Positions 3,822-64,000 of a DNA stretch of 64,000 nucleotides are shown piece by piece. Source of the stretch: Paenibacillus sp. NAIST15-1 (GTDB lineage Bacteria > Bacillota > Bacilli > Paenibacillales > Paenibacillaceae). The stretch's first letter is position 1. Every line of letters starts with the position of its first letter. The notes below the pieces were generated by a model that saw nothing but the letters and a program-made list of their open reading frames with translations, did not search any database and had not been told where the DNA came from. The stretch lies in contig NZ_BBYF01000003.1 in NCBI RefSeq assembly GCF_001894745.1, positions 620,001-684,000 of the forward strand, given 5' to 3'. A program made the translations under genes and the position numbers.

Positions 3822-4106
3822 TTAGTTCTTTGAATCTGTCGCCTTCTTGCGGCGAGCTTCCATAAAATAGCGAATGCGTACCATGAACATTAAAGCGACC
3901 GCGACAAACAAACATTGAATGATTGGCAGCTTGTCTATTTGAAAGATGAGCAGAACAAACGCGCCCAATCCCATCAGCAAATAGATCAGTACCTCCTTCA
4001 ATATCGGGAGTTTCTGCACACGGAAGACTTTATTGAACACATACACGATTAACAGATAAATAAGCGCATAACTTACAAAGGGATGGGAAGCCAACCATTC
4101 CTGCAT
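3822..4106 (-). CDS. ylaH: YlaH-like membrane protein
   Basis: 94 residues with three predicted membrane segments (about 8-26, 36-56 and 62-80) and a basic C-terminal tail ARRKKATDSKN. Length, topology and position directly downstream of typA match the YlaH-like family of Bacilli, whose function is unknown. Start ATG lies 10 nt after AAGGAGTG. The gap to typA is 40 bp, so co-transcription with typA is likely. Confidence 0.8.
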   Translation of the reverse strand: MQEWLASHPFVSYALIYLLIVYVFNKVFRVQKLPILKEVLIYLLMGLGAFVLLIFQIDKLPIIQCLFVAVALMFMVRIRYFMEARRKKATDSKN

Positions 4107-4146
4107 CGTAAACGCTCACTCCTTTGCCAAAGTTGTCCAAATCCCA

Positions 4147-5994
4147 TTATACATGGGATTCGGATACTTTGCGCGTCTTTTCTGCGCGTTCACGCTCGCT
4201 TTTGTTCAGTATTTTTTTGCGCAACCGTACAGAAGACGGTGTAATCTCGCAATATTCATCATCATTCAAATACTCTAAAGCTTGTTCCAAAGAGAATAGA
4301 ACAGGAGTTTTCATCTTTACAGTATCGTCTTTGGTTGCGGAGCGAACGTTCGTCAACGCCTTCTCTTTACAAATATTTACGACGATATCGTTGTCGCGGT
4401 TGTGCTCACCAACGATCATACCTTCATAAATTTCAGTACCTGGGTTTACGAACAACGTACCGCGATCTTCAACGGACATAATGCCGTACAGTGTTGAATT
4501 TCCTGTTTCTGTCGATACGAGAACGCCTTGGTGACGTCCGCCAACTTGACCGCCAGCATATGGGCCATAGCTGTCAAACGCGTGGTTCATGATGCCGTAT
4601 CCGCGTGTCAGCGTCAAGAAGTACGTGCTGTATCCGATAAGACCACGTGCAGGGATCAAGAACTCCAAACGCACTTGGCCATTGCCATGGTTAATCATGT
4701 TGACCATTTCTGCTTTTCTCGTTCCCAAGCTTTCCATTACCGGACCTGTAGCTTCTTCTGGAATGTCGATAAGCAAGCGCTCAATCGGCTCCGTCTTCTT
4801 ACCATCCACAACTTTGATGATAACTTCTGGTTTCGAAACTTGCAGCTCGTATCCTTCACGGCGCATGTTCTCAATCAAAATACTCAAATGCAATTCGCCA
4901 CGACCTGATACAATAAATGCATCTGGGCTCTCTGTTTCTTCAACACGAAGGCTGACGTCTGTTTCCAATTCTTTCATCAAGCGCTCGCGCAACTTACGTG
5001 ATGTAACCCATTTCCCTTCACGCCCTGCAAATGGGCTGTTGTTCACGAGGAACGTCATTTGCAGAGTAGGCTCATCAATATGAAGAACCGGAAGTGCTTC
5101 TGGATTCGCCGGATCTGCAATCGTCTCACCAATGTTAATATCCTTAATGCCGGCAATGGCAATGATATCGCCCGCTCCAGCTTCTTCTTGCTCAACACGC
5201 TTCAACCCTTGGAAACCGAACAGCTTCTCGATGCGTGCCTGCTTCGTCTTCCCTTCACGGTTAATAACCGCTACAGATTGACCTTGACGGATCGTACCAC
5301 GGTTCACACGACCAATCGCAATACGTCCCATGTACTCGTTGTAATCGAGCAAAGTAACGAGGAATTGCAATGGCTCTTCTGGATTTTCAGTTGGTGCAGG
5401 GATGTGGGAGATGATCGTCTCATACAACGCCTGCATGTTCTCTTCCTGTTTCGCAGGATCGGATTCCATGCTCGATGTACCGTTAAGCGCAGATGCATAT
5501 ACAACTGGGAAGTCCAATTGCTCATCATTCGCATCAAGCTCGATGAACAGCTCAAGTACTTCGTCGATGACCTCTTCTGGACGAGCATTTGGACGGTCAA
5601 TTTTGTTTACAACAACAATTGGCGTCAATTGGCTCTCAAGCGCTTTGCGAAGTACGAACTTCGTTTGCGGCATGCAGCCTTCAAATGCATCCACGACGAG
5701 CAATACGCCGTCAACCATTTTCATTATGCGTTCTACCTCGCCGCCGAAGTCAGCGTGGCCTGGTGTATCTACAATGTTAATCAGATTATCTTTGTACGTG
5801 ATGGCTGTATTTTTAGCCAGGATCGTAATTCCGCGTTCACGCTCCAAGTCATTGGAGTCCATTGCGCGTTCTTGAATAGCTTCATGCTCACGGAATGTAC
5901 CGGATTGTTGAAGCAGTTTGTCTACCAACGTCGTTTTCCCGTGGTCAACGTGTGCGATAATTGCGATATTGCGAAGTAAGCTTCTGTCTTGCAT
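4147..5994 (-). CDS. typA: Translational GTPase TypA/BipA
   Basis: 615 residues. It has an N-terminal GTPase domain with G1 AHVDHGKT at 14-21, G3 DTPGH and G4 NKID, followed by EF-G-like domains II, III and V and the BipA-specific C-terminal domain. TypA binds the ribosome and helps 50S assembly and translation under stress or cold. The start is placed at the ATG before QDRSLLRN, 10 nt after AGAAAGGAAAG; an upstream in-frame ATG would add 29 non-homologous residues. The basic end (KKILNKSERERAEK) is typical. It is followed by ylaH, as in the B. subtilis ylaG-ylaH order. Confidence 0.97.
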   Translation of the reverse strand: MQDRSLLRNIAIIAHVDHGKTTLVDKLLQQSGTFREHEAIQERAMDSNDLERERGITILAKNTAITYKDNLINIVDTPGHADFGGEVERIMKMVDGVLLVVDAFEGCMPQTKFVLRKALESQLTPIVVVNKIDRPNARPEEVIDEVLELFIELDANDEQLDFPVVYASALNGTSSMESDPAKQEENMQALYETIISHIPAPTENPEEPLQFLVTLLDYNEYMGRIAIGRVNRGTIRQGQSVAVINREGKTKQARIEKLFGFQGLKRVEQEEAGAGDIIAIAGIKDINIGETIADPANPEALPVLHIDEPTLQMTFLVNNSPFAGREGKWVTSRKLRERLMKELETDVSLRVEETESPDAFIVSGRGELHLSILIENMRREGYELQVSKPEVIIKVVDGKKTEPIERLLIDIPEEATGPVMESLGTRKAEMVNMINHGNGQVRLEFLIPARGLIGYSTYFLTLTRGYGIMNHAFDSYGPYAGGQVGGRHQGVLVSTETGNSTLYGIMSVEDRGTLFVNPGTEIYEGMIVGEHNRDNDIVVNICKEKALTNVRSATKDDTVKMKTPVLFSLEQALEYLNDDEYCEITPSSVRLRKKILNKSERERAEKTRKVSESHV

Positions 5995-7665: not shown

Positions 7666-8979
7666 TTAGAACCAATCTCCAGTTGCTGGCGCTGCCGGCC
7701 CAGCAGACTCATCTGCTATCTGTATAACCTGAGCAGGCTCATTCGCATTCGCTACCTTGTCTTTGTCTTTACCCGACAACACGATTGCATCATCAGGCGA
7801 GCCGCCCGCCTTCAGCAGGATCGCTTCCGTGTTTTCCACAGCAGCTTTAATGAGATCATCCAGCTCGGGGATAGAACGTTCCGCATGCTCAACGATATTC
7901 AAATTCGGATTCGTCGCCGGCGATTTCGGAATGAATAGAGTACAGCAATCTTCATAGGGAAGAATGGACAAGTCGTAAGTTCCGATATACTCTGCTTCAC
8001 GAATGATCTTATCCTTGTCCACCGTAACAAGCGGACGAAGCAATGGCAGATCTGTCGCACGGCCGATGACATTCATGCTGCCAAGCGTCTGGCTCGCAAC
8101 TTGACCCAAGCTGTCTCCCGTTACGATTGCCAGCGCATTGCGCTGCTCTGCAATTTGTGTGGCAATACGCAGCATGGCACGGCGCATCAACGTAATAAGC
8201 AAGTTATCATGTCCACTCTGATGAAGGCGAGTCTGGATATCTGTAAAGGGAACCATATGCACACGCATCCGTCCTGCATAGTTCGCAAGCACTTGAGCAA
8301 GATCGAGCACCTTCCGCTGCGCCCGTTCACTTGTGAACGGATAGCTGTGGAAATGAATCGCATCCAGTTGCAGCCCTTTGCGCAATGCTTCATAGCCGGC
8401 AACTGGACTGTCAATCCCCCCAGATAGAAGCAGCACGCCGCGGCCGTTGGATGCCAATGGGAAGCCTCCCGCACCTTGTACAACTTCGCTATACACATAG
8501 GTCCATTCTTCTCTAACCTCAACGCGCAAATCAATTTCAGGCTTGCGCACATCGACCTTAAGCCCCTCAAACTCGCGCAGCACAGGCGCACTAACAAGGT
8601 AATTCATCTCCTGGCTGCCATGCGGGAATCCCTTCCAAGCACGCTTCGCAGAAACTTTAAAGGTTGTCCCATCCGCAGGATTCATCTCACGGATTAATTG
8701 GACGGCCGTTTCAATAATCGGCTCTAGCTCAGAAGGAGTTCGCTTAACTGGACTAATGGACACCACACCGAACACATGCTTGAGCACTTGAATCATTTCG
8801 TCTAATGGCTCACCATTCAGCTCAACATAGAGTCGACCGTATTCTTTAATGACTTTAGCATTAGGAAAAGGACTAAGCATTGCATTGACATGCTGGTAAG
8901 CTGCCTTTTCAAACTTGCTGCGGTTCTTGCCTTTAATTGTGATTTCCCCATAACGAAGAAGAATCATATCGTATTCCAT
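7666..8979 (-). CDS. thiI: tRNA 4-thiouridine synthase ThiI
   Basis: 437 residues: an N-terminal ferredoxin-like domain (MEYDMILLRYGE, with the GKNR basic patch), a THUMP domain (about 60-165) and a PP-loop adenylation domain with LLLSGGIDSPVA. It activates U8 of tRNA and receives sulfur from the cysteine desulfurase encoded just upstream, giving s4U; ThiI may also supply sulfur for the thiazole of thiamine. The rhodanese domain found in E. coli ThiI is absent, as in Bacillus. About 35 residues of Lys/Ala-rich extension follow the usual end. The start is the ATG before EYDMILL; an earlier in-frame start adds unrelated residues. Confidence 0.97.
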   Translation of the reverse strand: MEYDMILLRYGEITIKGKNRSKFEKAAYQHVNAMLSPFPNAKVIKEYGRLYVELNGEPLDEMIQVLKHVFGVVSISPVKRTPSELEPIIETAVQLIREMNPADGTTFKVSAKRAWKGFPHGSQEMNYLVSAPVLREFEGLKVDVRKPEIDLRVEVREEWTYVYSEVVQGAGGFPLASNGRGVLLLSGGIDSPVAGYEALRKGLQLDAIHFHSYPFTSERAQRKVLDLAQVLANYAGRMRVHMVPFTDIQTRLHQSGHDNLLITLMRRAMLRIATQIAEQRNALAIVTGDSLGQVASQTLGSMNVIGRATDLPLLRPLVTVDKDKIIREAEYIGTYDLSILPYEDCCTLFIPKSPATNPNLNIVEHAERSIPELDDLIKAAVENTEAILLKAGGSPDDAIVLSGKDKDKVANANEPAQVIQIADESAGPAAPATGDWF

Positions 8980-58219: not shown

Positions 58220-59200
58220 CTATTCAAACGGCTTGCGCGCAACGAATGCAATCCAGTCTTCTTCCCGGTGCTTCGCTTCAACAATGAAGCCTTTCGCGAG
58301 CAAATCCTGCTCCACGACGTCTTCTTTATTTTTGTAAATGCCTGATGCGATGTAAACTCCGCCTGGCTGCAATGCTTCGTAGACATCCGAGACGAACAGC
58401 AGAATGATCTCCGCCAAAATATTGGCTACTACGATCTGAACCGGAAGCCGCACGCCAAGCTCCTGCTCCTCATCGGTACCGCTCGTTTTGATAATACTAA
58501 GCAGGTCGCCTTCTCGCACTGTTATTTCATCGGCTAGACCGTTCAAGCTGGTATTTTCCTTCGCGCTTAATACCGCAACCGGATCCAGATCAATCGCAAG
58601 CACATGCTTGGCGCCAAGCTTGCAGGCTCCAATTGCCAATATACCTGAGCCTGTCCCAACATCAATGACATCTTCTCCGCCTTGTACGACACTTTCCAAG
58701 GTACGCAAGCAGAGCGAGGTCGTCGGATGTGTTCCCGTACCGAATGCCATCCCTGGATCCAGCTCAATAATCTGCTCACCTTCTTGCGCCGTATAGGACT
58801 CCCATGTCGGTTTAATTGTCAATCGCTCTGTAACACGCGCTGGCTTGAAATACTGCTTCCATGCATTTGCCCAGTCATCCTCATGAACGGTCTTCCACGA
58901 AATTAGAGCTTCACCCGGATCGATCTGATAGCTTCTGAGTTCTTCAATACGCTCACGAATGACTGCTTCTACTTCCTTCAAATCCGTTCCATCTGCAAAA
59001 TATCCTTGTACGACTGCTTGTCCCTCAGGGATATCGTTCAGTGGAGATTGATACAATTCCCCATACGTAGTATCGCGCTGCTTGTTAAGCGTCCCCGATT
59101 CTTCAATCGTCACGCCCCCAGCGCCAGCCTCATGCAAAAAGTTCGATATCATTTCAATTGCTTCTTCGGTTGTATGTATCGTTAATTCATGCCAATGCAC
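58220..59200 (-). CDS. prmA: Ribosomal protein L11 methyltransferase PrmA
   Basis: 326 residues. An N-terminal substrate-binding ferredoxin-like domain is followed by a Rossmann methyltransferase domain with DVGTGSGILAIGA and the VANILAEI catalytic loop; PGMAFGTGTHPTT is the characteristic linker. It trimethylates L11. The start is GTG, 10 nt after AGGAGG. It is the first gene of the prmA-M50-rsmE-mtaB group. Confidence 0.96.
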   Translation of the reverse strand: MHWHELTIHTTEEAIEMISNFLHEAGAGGVTIEESGTLNKQRDTTYGELYQSPLNDIPEGQAVVQGYFADGTDLKEVEAVIRERIEELRSYQIDPGEALISWKTVHEDDWANAWKQYFKPARVTERLTIKPTWESYTAQEGEQIIELDPGMAFGTGTHPTTSLCLRTLESVVQGGEDVIDVGTGSGILAIGACKLGAKHVLAIDLDPVAVLSAKENTSLNGLADEITVREGDLLSIIKTSGTDEEQELGVRLPVQIVVANILAEIILLFVSDVYEALQPGGVYIASGIYKNKEDVVEQDLLAKGFIVEAKHREEDWIAFVARKPFE

Positions 59201-59359: not shown

Positions 59360-59557
59360 CTACTTGGAGGCTTCGCCTAAATGGTCGCGGATGAGCGCAT
59401 AGGCCCGATCCAGCACGTCCTCTTTAACATCCGCGCTGACCATGTAATAGTCGTCGCCTGCCGTAATACGTATGTCTTGCCCTCTTAATGCCTCCAGCTT
59501 GCGCTCACATACATCTGCAGCCGAAGCATGCTCAAAAGTAGCTGTTATGCGTGTCAC
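59360..59557 (-). CDS. Small protein of unknown function
   Basis: 65 residues, MTRITATFEHASAADVCERK to LIRDHLGEASK. It shows an alpha/beta pattern (strand, helix, strand, strand, helix) as in a ferredoxin-like domain, and no motif I can name. GTG start overlaps the stop of the upstream small gene by 4 bp. No clear Shine-Dalgarno, so translational coupling is likely. Confidence 0.65.
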   Translation of the reverse strand: MTRITATFEHASAADVCERKLEALRGQDIRITAGDDYYMVSADVKEDVLDRAYALIRDHLGEASK

Positions 59558-59751
59558 GACTGTTCCGCACGCTCATCGGCCTGATTCGCACGCTCCAATG
59601 CCTTCAAGTCATCGCGATCCGCCTCTTCATATGAAAATTCCACATCTTCAAACTTGCCGTCCGCTGGGACAACCTGTTGATTAACGTCCGCATCTGCCTG
59701 CTCGCTGTAAGCGCTTGAGGGGCGGTTATGCGTATCATGGAAATTGTTCAT
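59554..59751 (-). CDS. Small acidic protein of unknown function
   Basis: 65 residues, hydrophilic, Asp/Glu/Ala-rich and probably disordered (MNNFHDTHNRPSSAYSEQ). Start ATG follows GAAGGAGGCGCACCG. A nine-codon open frame with its own strong ribosome binding site ends overlapping this ATG (59748-59777). It lies between the dnaJ terminator and prmA and is coupled to the next small gene. Confidence 0.65.
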   Translation of the reverse strand: MNNFHDTHNRPSSAYSEQADADVNQQVVPADGKFEDVEFSYEEADRDDLKALERANQADERAEQS

Positions 59752-60008: not shown

Positions 60009-61127
60009 TTAATCTCCGCGGAAAGCACGCTTCATCCGATCAAAGAACGATTCTTCATTCCCGCCGTAGTTCGGATGTTCGCCACTCTTCTCCGCGAATT
60101 GGCGAAGCAGCTCCTTCTGCTCGTCAGACAGCTTCGTCGGTGTCACGATAACAACCTTCACATGCTGATCGCCTTGACCGGAACCGCGCAGGCGAGGAAC
60201 CCCTTTGTTACGCAGGCGGAAGAACGTGCCCGTCTGTGTACCAGCCGGTATTTTCAGCTTCACCTTCTCCGTCAGCGTCGGAATTTCAATTTCGTCGCCG
60301 AGCGCTGCTTGCGCGAACGTAAGCGGAATCTCGCAATAGATATCGTCCCCGTCACGCTCGAAGAACTCGTGGCGTTTCACACGGATTACGATATACAGAT
60401 CCCCACTCGGCCCGCCGCGAAGTCCACTTTCCCCTTCGCCGCTCATGCGCAGCTGTGCGCCATCATCGACACCCGCAGGAATGCGGACATGAATTTTGCG
60501 CTGCTTCTTCACAGTACCTGCACCGTGACAAGTTCCACACTTCTCACGAATAATTTTGCCTCGGCCTTGACATGTCGAACATGCACGACGGTTGACCATG
60601 CGGCCAAACGGCGTATTCTGCACGACTTCTTGCTGTCCTGTTCCGTGGCAAGTCGTACATGCATCTGGCTTCGTTCCCGGCTTCGCTCCAGAACCATAGC
60701 ATGTGTCGCATTGCTCGGTACGCGGGATGGTAATGTCCATCTCTTTGCCAAATACAGCTTCCTTGAATTCGATCGTCATCGTGTACTGCAAATCTCCGCC
60801 ACGCTGAGGCGCGTTCGGATCCTTGCTGCGGCCACCGCCGCCGAAGAACATATCGAAGATATCGCCAAATCCGCCGAAGTCGCCTCCGCCGCCACCCATA
60901 CCTTGGTTCGGATCGACATGACCGTATTGGTCATACATTGCCCGTTTTTGATTGTCACTTAGCACATCGTACGCTTCTTTGACTTCCTTGAACTTGTCTT
61001 CTGCGTCCGCGGCCTTGTTGACATCCGGGTGATATTGGCGTGCGAGCTTGCGATACGCCTTCTTAATCTCGTCGTCGCCAGAACCTTTGGCAACGCCAAG
61101 CACTTCATAATAATCTCGTTTCGCCAC
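60009..61127 (-). CDS. dnaJ: Chaperone DnaJ (Hsp40)
   Basis: 372 residues, type I. The J domain with HPD at 33-35 is followed by a Gly/Phe-rich linker ([20 protein letters not shown]), four CxxCxGxG zinc repeats and the C-terminal substrate-binding domains. It stimulates DnaK ATPase and delivers clients. The start is GTG after GGGGGTGGAATA. A stem-loop lies in the 113-bp gap after dnaK. It is last in the operon. Confidence 0.98.
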
Positions 61128-61240: not shown

Positions 61241-63079
61241 TTATTTCTTGTCTTCGTCTACGACTTCATAATCAGCATCAACGACGTTGTCTTTCTTCGC
61301 TGCGCCTTGCTCTGGCTCTTGGCCTTGTGCTGCTTGCTGAGCTTGAGCAGCTTGCTCATACAGCTTCACAGACAACTGCTGTACGATTTGCGTCAACTCT
61401 TCTGTTGCTGCTTTGATCTCGTCAACGTTGTTGCTTTCGAGTGCTTTTTTCACTTTTTCTTTTGCTTCGTTTGCTTTATCTACTTCAGCCTGGTCAACCT
61501 TGTCGCCCAAGTCTTTAATTGTTTTCTCCGTTGTGTATACCAATTGGTCAGCGCTGTTCTTCACTTCGACCATTTCTTTGCGCTTGTTGTCTTCTTCCGC
61601 ATGCATTTCTGCTTCCTTCATCATGCGGTCGATTTCCTCATCGTTCAAGCCGCTGGAGGAAGTAATTGTGATGTTTTGAGTCTTACCAGTACCTTTGTCT
61701 TGTGCAGATACTTTTACGATACCATTCGCATCGATATCGAAGCTAACTTCGATTTGTGGCACTCCGCGTGGAGCTGGTGGGATATCCGCCAGCATAAAGC
61801 GGCCAAGTGTCTTGTTGTCAGCAGCCATGGAGCGCTCACCTTGAAGCACATGGATTTCTACGCTCGTTTGGTTGTCTGCATAAGTCGAGAACACTTGCGA
61901 CTTGCTTGTAGGAATCGTAGTGTTGCGCTCGATCATCTTCGTGAATACACCGCCTGCTGTTTCGATACCAAGGGACAATGGTGTTACGTCGAGCAATACA
62001 ACGTCCTTCACGTCGCCAGTCAATACGCCAGCTTGAACGGCTGCACCAAGTGCAACCACTTCATCCGGGTTAACGCCTTTGTGAGGCTCTTTGCCTGTAA
62101 GCTTCTTGATTGCTTCTTGTACCGCTGGGATACGAGTAGAACCGCCGACAAGAACGATCTTGTCGATGTCAGCAGGAGTCATGCCTGCATCTTGCATCGC
62201 TTGGCGAGTTGGGCCAAGTGTACGCTCAACCAAGTTCTCAGACAATTCTTCGAACTTCGCACGAGTCAAGTTTACTTCCAAGTGCTGAGGCACTCCATCA
62301 ACAACCGTGATGAACGGCAAGCTGATTGTTGTTGTCATTACGCCGGACAATTCTTTTTTCGCTTTTTCAGCAGCATCTTTCAAGCGTTGCACTGCTGCTT
62401 TGTCTTTAGCCAAGTCAATGCCATGCTCTTTCTTGAATTCTGCAGCCAAGTAATCGATGATAACTTGGTCGAAGTCGTCGCCGCCCAATTGGTTGTCGCC
62501 GCTTGTCGCTTTAACTTCGAAGAAGCCGTCGCCGAGCTCAAGGATCGATACGTCGAATGTACCGCCGCCCAAGTCGTATACAAGGATCGTTTGATCGTTT
62601 TCTTTGTCTGCGCCGTAAGCAAGTGCTGCCGCTGTAGGCTCGTTGACGATACGAAGAACTTCAAGACCTGCGATTTTACCAGCGTCCTTCGTTGCTTGAC
62701 GTTGGGAATCGTTGAAGTATGCAGGAACTGTAATTACGGCTTGAGTAACCGGTTGACCCAAATAAGCTTCTGCATCGGATTTCAATTTTTGCAAAATGAT
62801 TGCGGAAAGCTCTTGCGGTGTGAAGTCTTTGCCATCAATTGATGTTTTATGGTTTGTTCCCATATGACGCTTAATGGAGATCACGGTACGATCAGGATTT
62901 GTGATCGCTTGACGCTTCGCTGTTTCACCAACAACGCGCTCTCCATCCTTCTTGAAACCTAATACGGAAGGGGTTGTGCGCGCACCTTCTGGGTTCGGGA
63001 TAACGACAGCTTCGCCGCCTTCCATAACCGCAACGCAAGAGTTTGTTGTACCTAAGTCAATACCAATTACTTTACTCAT
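61241..63079 (-). CDS. dnaK: Chaperone DnaK (Hsp70)
   Basis: 612 residues. The actin-like ATPase domain starts [15 protein letters not shown], includes [14 protein letters not shown] and GGSTRIPAV, followed by the linker [13 protein letters not shown] and the substrate-binding beta domain and lid; the C-terminus is Gln/Ala/Glu-rich and ends VVDEDKK. It is the Hsp70 foldase. Start ATG follows GAGGAGGATATATTC. A long open frame on the opposite strand is only a shadow of this codon pattern. Confidence 0.99.
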
Positions 63080-63180: not shown

Positions 63181-63786
63181 TTATCCGCTAACTTTGACCA
63201 TTGCCGGACGCAATACTTTGTCCTTCAGCAAGTAGCCCTTCTGCAGTTCTTCAACTACAGTGCCTTCTTCAAATTCATCAGTTTCGACTGTCATTACCGC
63301 TTGATGGAATTCTGGATTGAAAGGCTGGCCGACAGCTTCCATCGGCTTCACACCTTCCTGCTCCAGCACTTGGCCCAACTGGCGGAAGATCATGTCTACC
63401 CCTTTGATGAATGATTCAGCTTCGCTCGCCGCTTGCTCAGTTGCAAGTGCGCGCTCGAAGTTGTCGAGCACAGGAAGCAGCTCGGTAACGAGCTTCGCAG
63501 AAGCATACTTCGCGAGATCTTCCTTCTCCTTCAGTGTGCGGCGGCGGAAGTTATCGAAATCTGCCTGCGCACGCAAGAAGCGCTGCTGGTATTCCTCTGC
63601 TTCTGCTTTTGCTTTGGCAAGCTCAGCATCCTCCACTGCACCTTCGCTCGAAGAAGTATTCCCTTCGCTGGACTCCGCTGTCGCGTTATCAGCAGCAGGA
63701 ATGTCTTCTGTATGATTATGGGCAGCTTGTGCCGCCTCTTCATTCATCGTTTCAGTTGCAATGTTCTCTTCTTTTTCTGGGTTCAA
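63181..63786 (-). CDS. grpE: Nucleotide exchange factor GrpE
   Basis: 201 residues from a TTG start. A disordered acidic N-terminus is followed by a long helix with RAQADFDNFRRRTLKE and the beta domain ending VSG. The dimer releases ADP from DnaK. The TTG at 63786 lies 6 nt after GGGGAGGTG; an ATG 36 bp upstream has no good ribosome binding site and would add 12 residues overlapping that site. It is 90 bp downstream of the chaperonin gene and 101 bp upstream of dnaK. Confidence 0.95.
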   Translation of the reverse strand: MNPEKEENIATETMNEEAAQAAHNHTEDIPAADNATAESSEGNTSSSEGAVEDAELAKAKAEAEEYQQRFLRAQADFDNFRRRTLKEKEDLAKYASAKLVTELLPVLDNFERALATEQAASEAESFIKGVDMIFRQLGQVLEQEGVKPMEAVGQPFNPEFHQAVMTVETDEFEEGTVVEELQKGYLLKDKVLRPAMVKVSG

Positions 63787-63875
63787 CCCCTTCACCTCCC
63801 CTTCGTAGTTCAATACTTTCATCTATAGTTGATATACATTGTTACCTAGTTTTAGCTCAGGCGAGCGTTCTCCAA

Positions 63876-64000
63876 TCAGGATTGTGCTCTCATCTTAATT
63901 ACCGTATGGATGCGAAGCACCGCTGCGGCTACTTCTCCTGCAGCACGCAAAGCATGCAGCTTCACGGCTGCCGGGTCATAAATGCCCGCCTGTGCATAAT
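63876..64000 (-). CDS. C-terminal end of an archaeal-like (group III, thermosome-type) chaperonin, cut by the window
   Basis: Only the last 40 residues are visible (YAQAGIYDPAAVKLHALRAA to the end at TGA 63876-63878). The DPxxVKxxALRxAxEVA pattern followed by VLRIHTVI matches the conserved C-terminus of archaeal thermosomes and of the bacterial group III chaperonins; it is unlike GroEL, which ends in a Gly-Met tail. Group III chaperonins occur in a few Firmicutes such as Carboxydothermus, within the dnaK operon; here the gene also lies directly before grpE. The identity rests on a short segment, so the full gene in the next window must confirm it. HrcA would be expected further upstream or elsewhere. 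Confidence 0.72.
   Translation of the reverse strand, partial: YAQAGIYDPAAVKLHALRAAGEVAAAVLRIHTVIKMRAQS

Follow-up and report, generated by a model that had tools for sequence, protein, structure and literature searches.

Group III chaperonins are owned by few bacteria only, according to passages of a 2017 review (PMC5220055) that also describe their working relationship with Group I chaperonins as uncharacterised. A crystallised example comes from an extreme thermophile, Carboxydothermus hydrogenoformans (Ch-CPN; PDB 5x9u and 5x9v), and sections of An et al. 2017 (PMC5635000) name its catalytic, lid and inter-ring residues. By sequence, Ch-CPN is the closest natural solved relative of the protein discussed here, whose gene runs off the end of a 64,000-nucleotide stretch of Paenibacillus sp. 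NAIST15-1 DNA (the window; contig NZ_BBYF01000003.1, positions 620,001 to 684,000, or G000:C3:620001-684000 in our coordinates). With a probability of about 95%, we propose that this gene encodes an ATP-driven Group III chaperonin, most likely forming a double-ring chamber with a built-in lid, and that it is the second gene of a heat-shock operon in which a controlling inverted repeat of chaperone expression (CIRCE) is followed by hrcA, the chaperonin gene, grpE, dnaK and dnaJ.

The last 125 bases of the window hold the end of the gene, where the minus-strand frame 63876-63998 translates to YAQAGIYDPAAVKLHALRAAGEVAAAVLRIHTVIKMRAQS followed by a stop codon, in agreement with the peptide given at first pass. 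The remainder was read from the adjoining stretch (L003, whose coordinates equal those of the window minus 60000). The complete gene has 531 codons without an internal stop and begins with an ATG at L003:5471 (G000:C3:685471). Its protein matches the Pfam family Cpn60_TCP1 over profile positions 4-488 of 490 (expectation value (E) 1.5e-100, 337.6 bits). The match spans nearly the full profile, and therefore the chaperonin reading is not a product of chance.

A first-pass annotation of the window had read these 40 codons as the C-terminus of an archaeal-type chaperonin rather than GroEL, and had placed the gene about 90 bp upstream of grpE, at the head of the operon and in the usual position of hrcA. 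The chaperonin itself is borne out: the frame stays open upstream, the GDGTT motif occupies residues 87-91, and the equatorial domain is present. The spacing was also about right, being 89 bases if grpE starts at TTG 63786, or 53 bases with the upstream ATG at 63822. The absence of hrcA, in contrast, is refuted. A complete hrcA lies directly upstream, and the chaperonin gene sits between it and grpE, within the dnaK operon rather than at its head. All genes of the order CIRCE, hrcA, chaperonin, grpE, dnaK, dnaJ lie on a single strand, which is the minus strand in the window:

63876..64000, minus strand: the C-terminal 40 codons and stop codon of the Group III chaperonin gene, which extends past the window (frame translation and profile search)
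L003:5498-6574, same strand as the chaperonin gene: complete hrcA, ending 26 bases upstream of it
63181..63822, minus strand: grpE (from ATG; TTG at 63786 is the likelier start), named partly by a match at the same place in other loci
61241..63079, minus strand: presumably dnaK (Hsp70); order matches other loci
60009..61127, minus strand: presumably dnaJ (Hsp40); order matches other loci
58220..59200, minus strand: presumably a prmA-like methyltransferase gene after dnaJ; a match follows dnaJ in some longer loci

The names dnaK, dnaJ and prmA-like, and in part grpE, are presumptive. Between dnaJ and the prmA-like gene are two small frames on the same strand. One (59554-59751) barely clears the Pfam cut-off for YfhD, with 29 bits versus 27, and the other (59360-59557) has no match in Pfam or NCBIfam.

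Scanning the genome with a pattern that we take to represent CIRCE revealed a perfect element, TTAGCACTC-N9-GAGTGCTAA, at G000:C3:686564-686590 ahead of hrcA, with a TTGACA-18-TATTTT pair immediately upstream of it. With a single CIRCE ahead of a single operon, common control with Hsp70, as suggested at first pass, would be the natural interpretation. At no more than two mismatches, the genome carries two further sites, one (with one mismatch) ahead of groES-groEL and one ahead of an Hsp90 gene. The latter element, also perfect, is located upstream of htpG at G000:C8:103443-103469 (L127) and would place Hsp90 in the HrcA regulon alongside Hsp70, GroEL and the Group III chaperonin.

Assignment to Group III can be judged from profile scores, diagnostic segments, key residues and phylogeny. 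For none of the 19 NCBIfam families listed does the protein reach the cut-off. Its highest score, 250 bits, is with the model for the archaeal thermosome subunit; this exceeds all GroEL models and could suggest that an archaeal Group II thermosome gene was recently acquired and inserted into the operon of this Paenibacillus lineage. However, this score is far under the cut-off of 671.1. Moreover, the nucleotide-sensing loop is absent, with the corresponding segment measuring 15 residues in all 115 Group III rows of our alignment versus 21 in all six Group II rows. The lid segment measures 33 residues versus 37 in Group II, a deletion of the Group III type that leaves the short, built-in lid of that group. 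A tree of 123 chaperonins separates its 115 Group III rows, which include the window protein and that of C. hydrogenoformans, from six Group II and two Group I rows. Together with the lack of any well-supported conflict between the chaperonin and hrcA/grpE trees (see below), and within a thin sampling of archaea, these findings make a thermosome origin extremely improbable, and we reject it. The tree was built without two broken genes (L041 and L042), two copies of the window gene (L001 and L005) and a copy of the GroEL locus (L002); the GroEL of L004 serves as one of the Group I rows.

A profile search of the same genome with Cpn60_TCP1 found two chaperonins, namely the window-edge gene and one on a different contig. 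The second is an ordinary GroEL preceded by GroES and scores 856.1 bits with the GroEL model TIGR02348. Because GroEL belongs to the same superfamily and GroEL models match parts of the window protein (141.2 bits with TIGR02348), one might ask whether the latter is a divergent or additional Group I copy. Yet its score falls well below the cut-off of 582.1, its lid is of the Group III type, it has no GGM tail, and the genome already has its own groES-groEL pair. The closest solved relative and the tree likewise contradict this possibility, which we reject as having a next to negligible chance of being correct.

Alignment with Ch-CPN matches the functional residues individually. The catalytic residues D57, D396 and R156 correspond to D56, D373 and R155 of the reference, and the hydrophobic lid tip L239, F245, Y248 and F255 corresponds to L237, F243, Y246 and F253. 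For the inter-ring contact, the ball L462 corresponds to L439, and the socket R110, V112, M434 and F437 corresponds to K109, V111, M411 and Y414. Both socket changes (K109R and Y414F) are conservative, and a ball-and-socket contact would thus be retained. On these sequence grounds, the window-edge gene is a Group III chaperonin gene, real and of an already described kind. In two Group III chaperonins that neighbor each other in the tree (L100 and L118), the catalytic Asp of the NDG motif (D57 in the window protein) is replaced by Ala, and the second catalytic Asp is kept.

The Group III architecture is a hexadecamer built from two eight-fold rings, with closure that needs no GroES. An AlphaFold2 model of a single subunit is confident. 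The top two solved chains in Foldseek are the Group III crystals in their closed and open forms, and in VIA-align both of these crystals and a reconstructed Group III ancestor fill the first three places. In the sequence file, the chain name of that ancestor (PDB 9rwq) is Ancestral Group II (ACII) and the entry title is Ancestral Group III (ACIII); its sequence score and fold agree with Group III. Where the apical and intermediate domains join, a segment spans 17-37 residues in 26 rows that form one clade of the tree, composed of the genus itself and near named species; in the remaining 89 Group III rows it spans 7-13, mostly 10. The predicted local distance difference test score falls below 50 at residues 351-364 and elsewhere only at residues 1-5. 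The long loop, the only lineage-specific trait found, is probably disordered according to the model. As a guess, it might serve in tuning the lid hinge or as a docking site.

Group III genes are not confined to this strain. All 19 genomes of the same genus have the gene (G012 as two pieces of a split frame). In wider samples a limit of E ≤1e-40 was applied, which was set because GroEL matches the chaperonin query at about 1e-20. It yielded 26 positives among 197 genomes for the family (19 being the genus itself), 112 among 296 for the order, 61 among 398 for the class and 127 among 398 for the phylum; these samples overlap, were drawn evenly from larger groups and are not population frequencies. 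GroEL was sought in 80 Group III genomes, the first of the 126 phylum-sample positives besides this genome; every one has a match at E 1e-80, and replacement of GroEL by Group III was not found among them. Of loci L001-L120, 118 bear the gene, three of these being the window's own; L002 and L004 are excluded as GroEL. The order hrcA, chaperonin, grpE, dnaK recurs in 117 of the 118. The exception (L116), in which hrcA was not found, is shorter than most, and we take this for a contig end. Many loci represent one species met twice, leaving 100 distinct intact chaperonins besides that of the window. Start codons and gene distances across loci are script estimates, and several overlaps, as well as L114 and L118, look misparsed.

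Thus, of what had been claimed at first pass, the family and operon assignments stand, including the Paenibacillus-type host (the protein of P. alvei DSM 29 is 96% identical). Neither the missing hrcA nor an exceptional, isolated extension of range is supported, as the gene is frequent in the order and phylum samples and has one layout.

The chaperonin tree was also compared with a tree of HrcA and GrpE from 95 loci, a set that excludes loci lacking a complete hrcA and grpE as well as repeats of an identical chaperonin. The two share 65 of 92 splits. Among well-supported splits, which number 47 and 54 in the two trees, 39 are common and none conflict, and inheritance with the operon combined with repeated loss is therefore favoured. 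Of the 171 gene-free family genomes, 12 were examined, and in these hrcA adjoins grpE. The first aligned GrpE codon falls 65-226 bases past the hrcA stop in 11 of these; in the twelfth (L138) the script misread the hrcA stop, and an hrcA-like start can be read from the bases there. The simplest explanation is that the gene is old, was passed down vertically and was cleanly lost on repeated occasions. Relatives suggest that Group III chaperonins are fairly widespread and ancient among these bacteria. We lean, with some reserve, toward a broader proposal: rather than a rare feature of a few thermophiles, Group III would have belonged to the HrcA operon of this phylum since early times and descended vertically with it. 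It would have been retained alongside GroEL in as many as a third of the species sampled (127/398 in the phylum, 61/398 in the class) and repeatedly lost. In the P. alvei clade, its shape would have been altered by the long disordered loop at the apical/intermediate hinge, which could adjust how the lid moves or serve as a docking site for DnaK.

Repeated loss raises the question of whether the window gene is itself a decaying relic, readable in sequence although its chaperonin function has been lost in the lineage. Outside the genus, 171 of 178 family genomes give no match, and broken or partial copies occur in some relatives, including L041, L042, G012, G201 (residues 9-281 only), G757 (internal stop), and G025, G042 and G055 (a stop within the second matched piece). 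Among these, L041 and L042 alone were looked at in detail. In L042 (Gorillibacterium timonense) a palindrome at 7828-7921 lies within the broken frame; because it resembles what we take to be a sequencing-library transposon adapter, this break is a probable assembly artefact. The L041 record, probably from the same species as G012, has a coverage of about 4, and both breaks may be artefactual. Against decay, the frame is unbroken here, as it is in 18 of the 19 genus members, and the catalytic residues are kept. Furthermore, the ratio of nonsynonymous to synonymous substitution rates (dN/dS) relative to eight relatives is 0.045-0.155, mostly between the values for hrcA and grpE, where dS exceeds 1 in seven of the eight pairs and that of hrcA was not computable in three. 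Six additional pairs give 0.023-0.146. Such low values reflect purifying selection and speak for a working protein. The decay reading is weakened by these results, and we regard it as very unlikely.

Several observations nonetheless weigh against parts of our proposal of a Group III chaperonin inherited within a CIRCE-controlled operon. The Group III branch has a support value of 93 in the Shimodaira-Hasegawa-like approximate likelihood ratio test, below the 95 mark and from a quick tree without bootstrap. That tree, in which 5x9u and Group II were flagged for long branches, contains only six Group II and two Group I rows with thin archaeal sampling, and has many poorly settled deep forks. Close relatives lack the gene, with 171 of 197 family genomes giving no match at E 1e-40, and 27 of the 92 splits differ between the chaperonin and HrcA+GrpE trees. 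The promoter scan counted two promoter-like sites versus a shuffle mean of 3.6, and thus no excess overall. Finally, in L017 (Paenibacillus sp. 2.1; 4086-5855) an IS110-type transposase gene (4303-5547, minus strand) lies between CIRCE and hrcA, and its insertion may have broken CIRCE control there. In two other loci (L013:5911-6974, P. alvei DSM 29; L038:5931-6964, Paenibacillus sp. CC-CFT747), hrcA is split over two frames, which is either a genuine break or a sequencing error.

It is reasonable to outline how this chaperonin might work. Repression by HrcA through CIRCE is established in other bacteria, and HrcA bound to the element ahead of hrcA would repress the operon. Heat or other protein damage would lift this repression, and the chaperonin would be made together with the DnaK system. 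GroES/GroEL and HtpG would be expected to rise too, because CIRCE sites precede their genes. Each subunit would hold unfolded protein at its hydrophobic lid tip. In a working mode modelled on the C. hydrogenoformans protein, ATP would shut the built-in lid over the bound client without GroES, and hydrolysis would reopen it. DnaK may pass clients to the chaperonin, a step we propose because prefoldin is not known from bacteria. A hand-over of this sort appears as speculation in passages of PMC5220055 and PMC5635000. The common operon fits a hand-over and does not show it.

In the library searched, no paper joined thermosome or archaeal-like, chaperonin and Paenibacillus. Nor do PMC5220055, PMC5635000 and PMC12696368 use the word "Paenibacillus" in their main text, although the supplementary list of 195 Group III proteins in PMC5635000 was outside that search and could include the genus. 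A culturable, mesophilic Paenibacillus with the gene behind CIRCE, beside gene-free relatives, would allow the role of Group III next to GroEL, and its feeding by DnaK, to be tested by gene removal.

Compared with described systems, the gene sits where the literature usually places Group III and is frequent in the sampled phylum. The archaeal thermosomes of Group II differ by bearing the nucleotide-sensing loop, by their longer lid segment and by their separate branch. Ch-CPN shares about 40% identity over the full length, the same catalytic, lid-tip and inter-ring ball residues, the lack of the nucleotide-sensing loop, and the placement of its gene within the dnaK operon, which PMC5635000 reports for Group III genes bar one. 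It differs in its extremely thermophilic host, in the two socket residues, and in the apical/intermediate loop, which in the window protein (residues 351-371) is 21 residues longer. Closest of all are the chaperonins of other Paenibacillus species (P. alvei DSM 29, P. profundus, P. apiarius and others; 31 loci), which are 54-96% identical and are encoded in the same operon order with a perfect CIRCE upstream.
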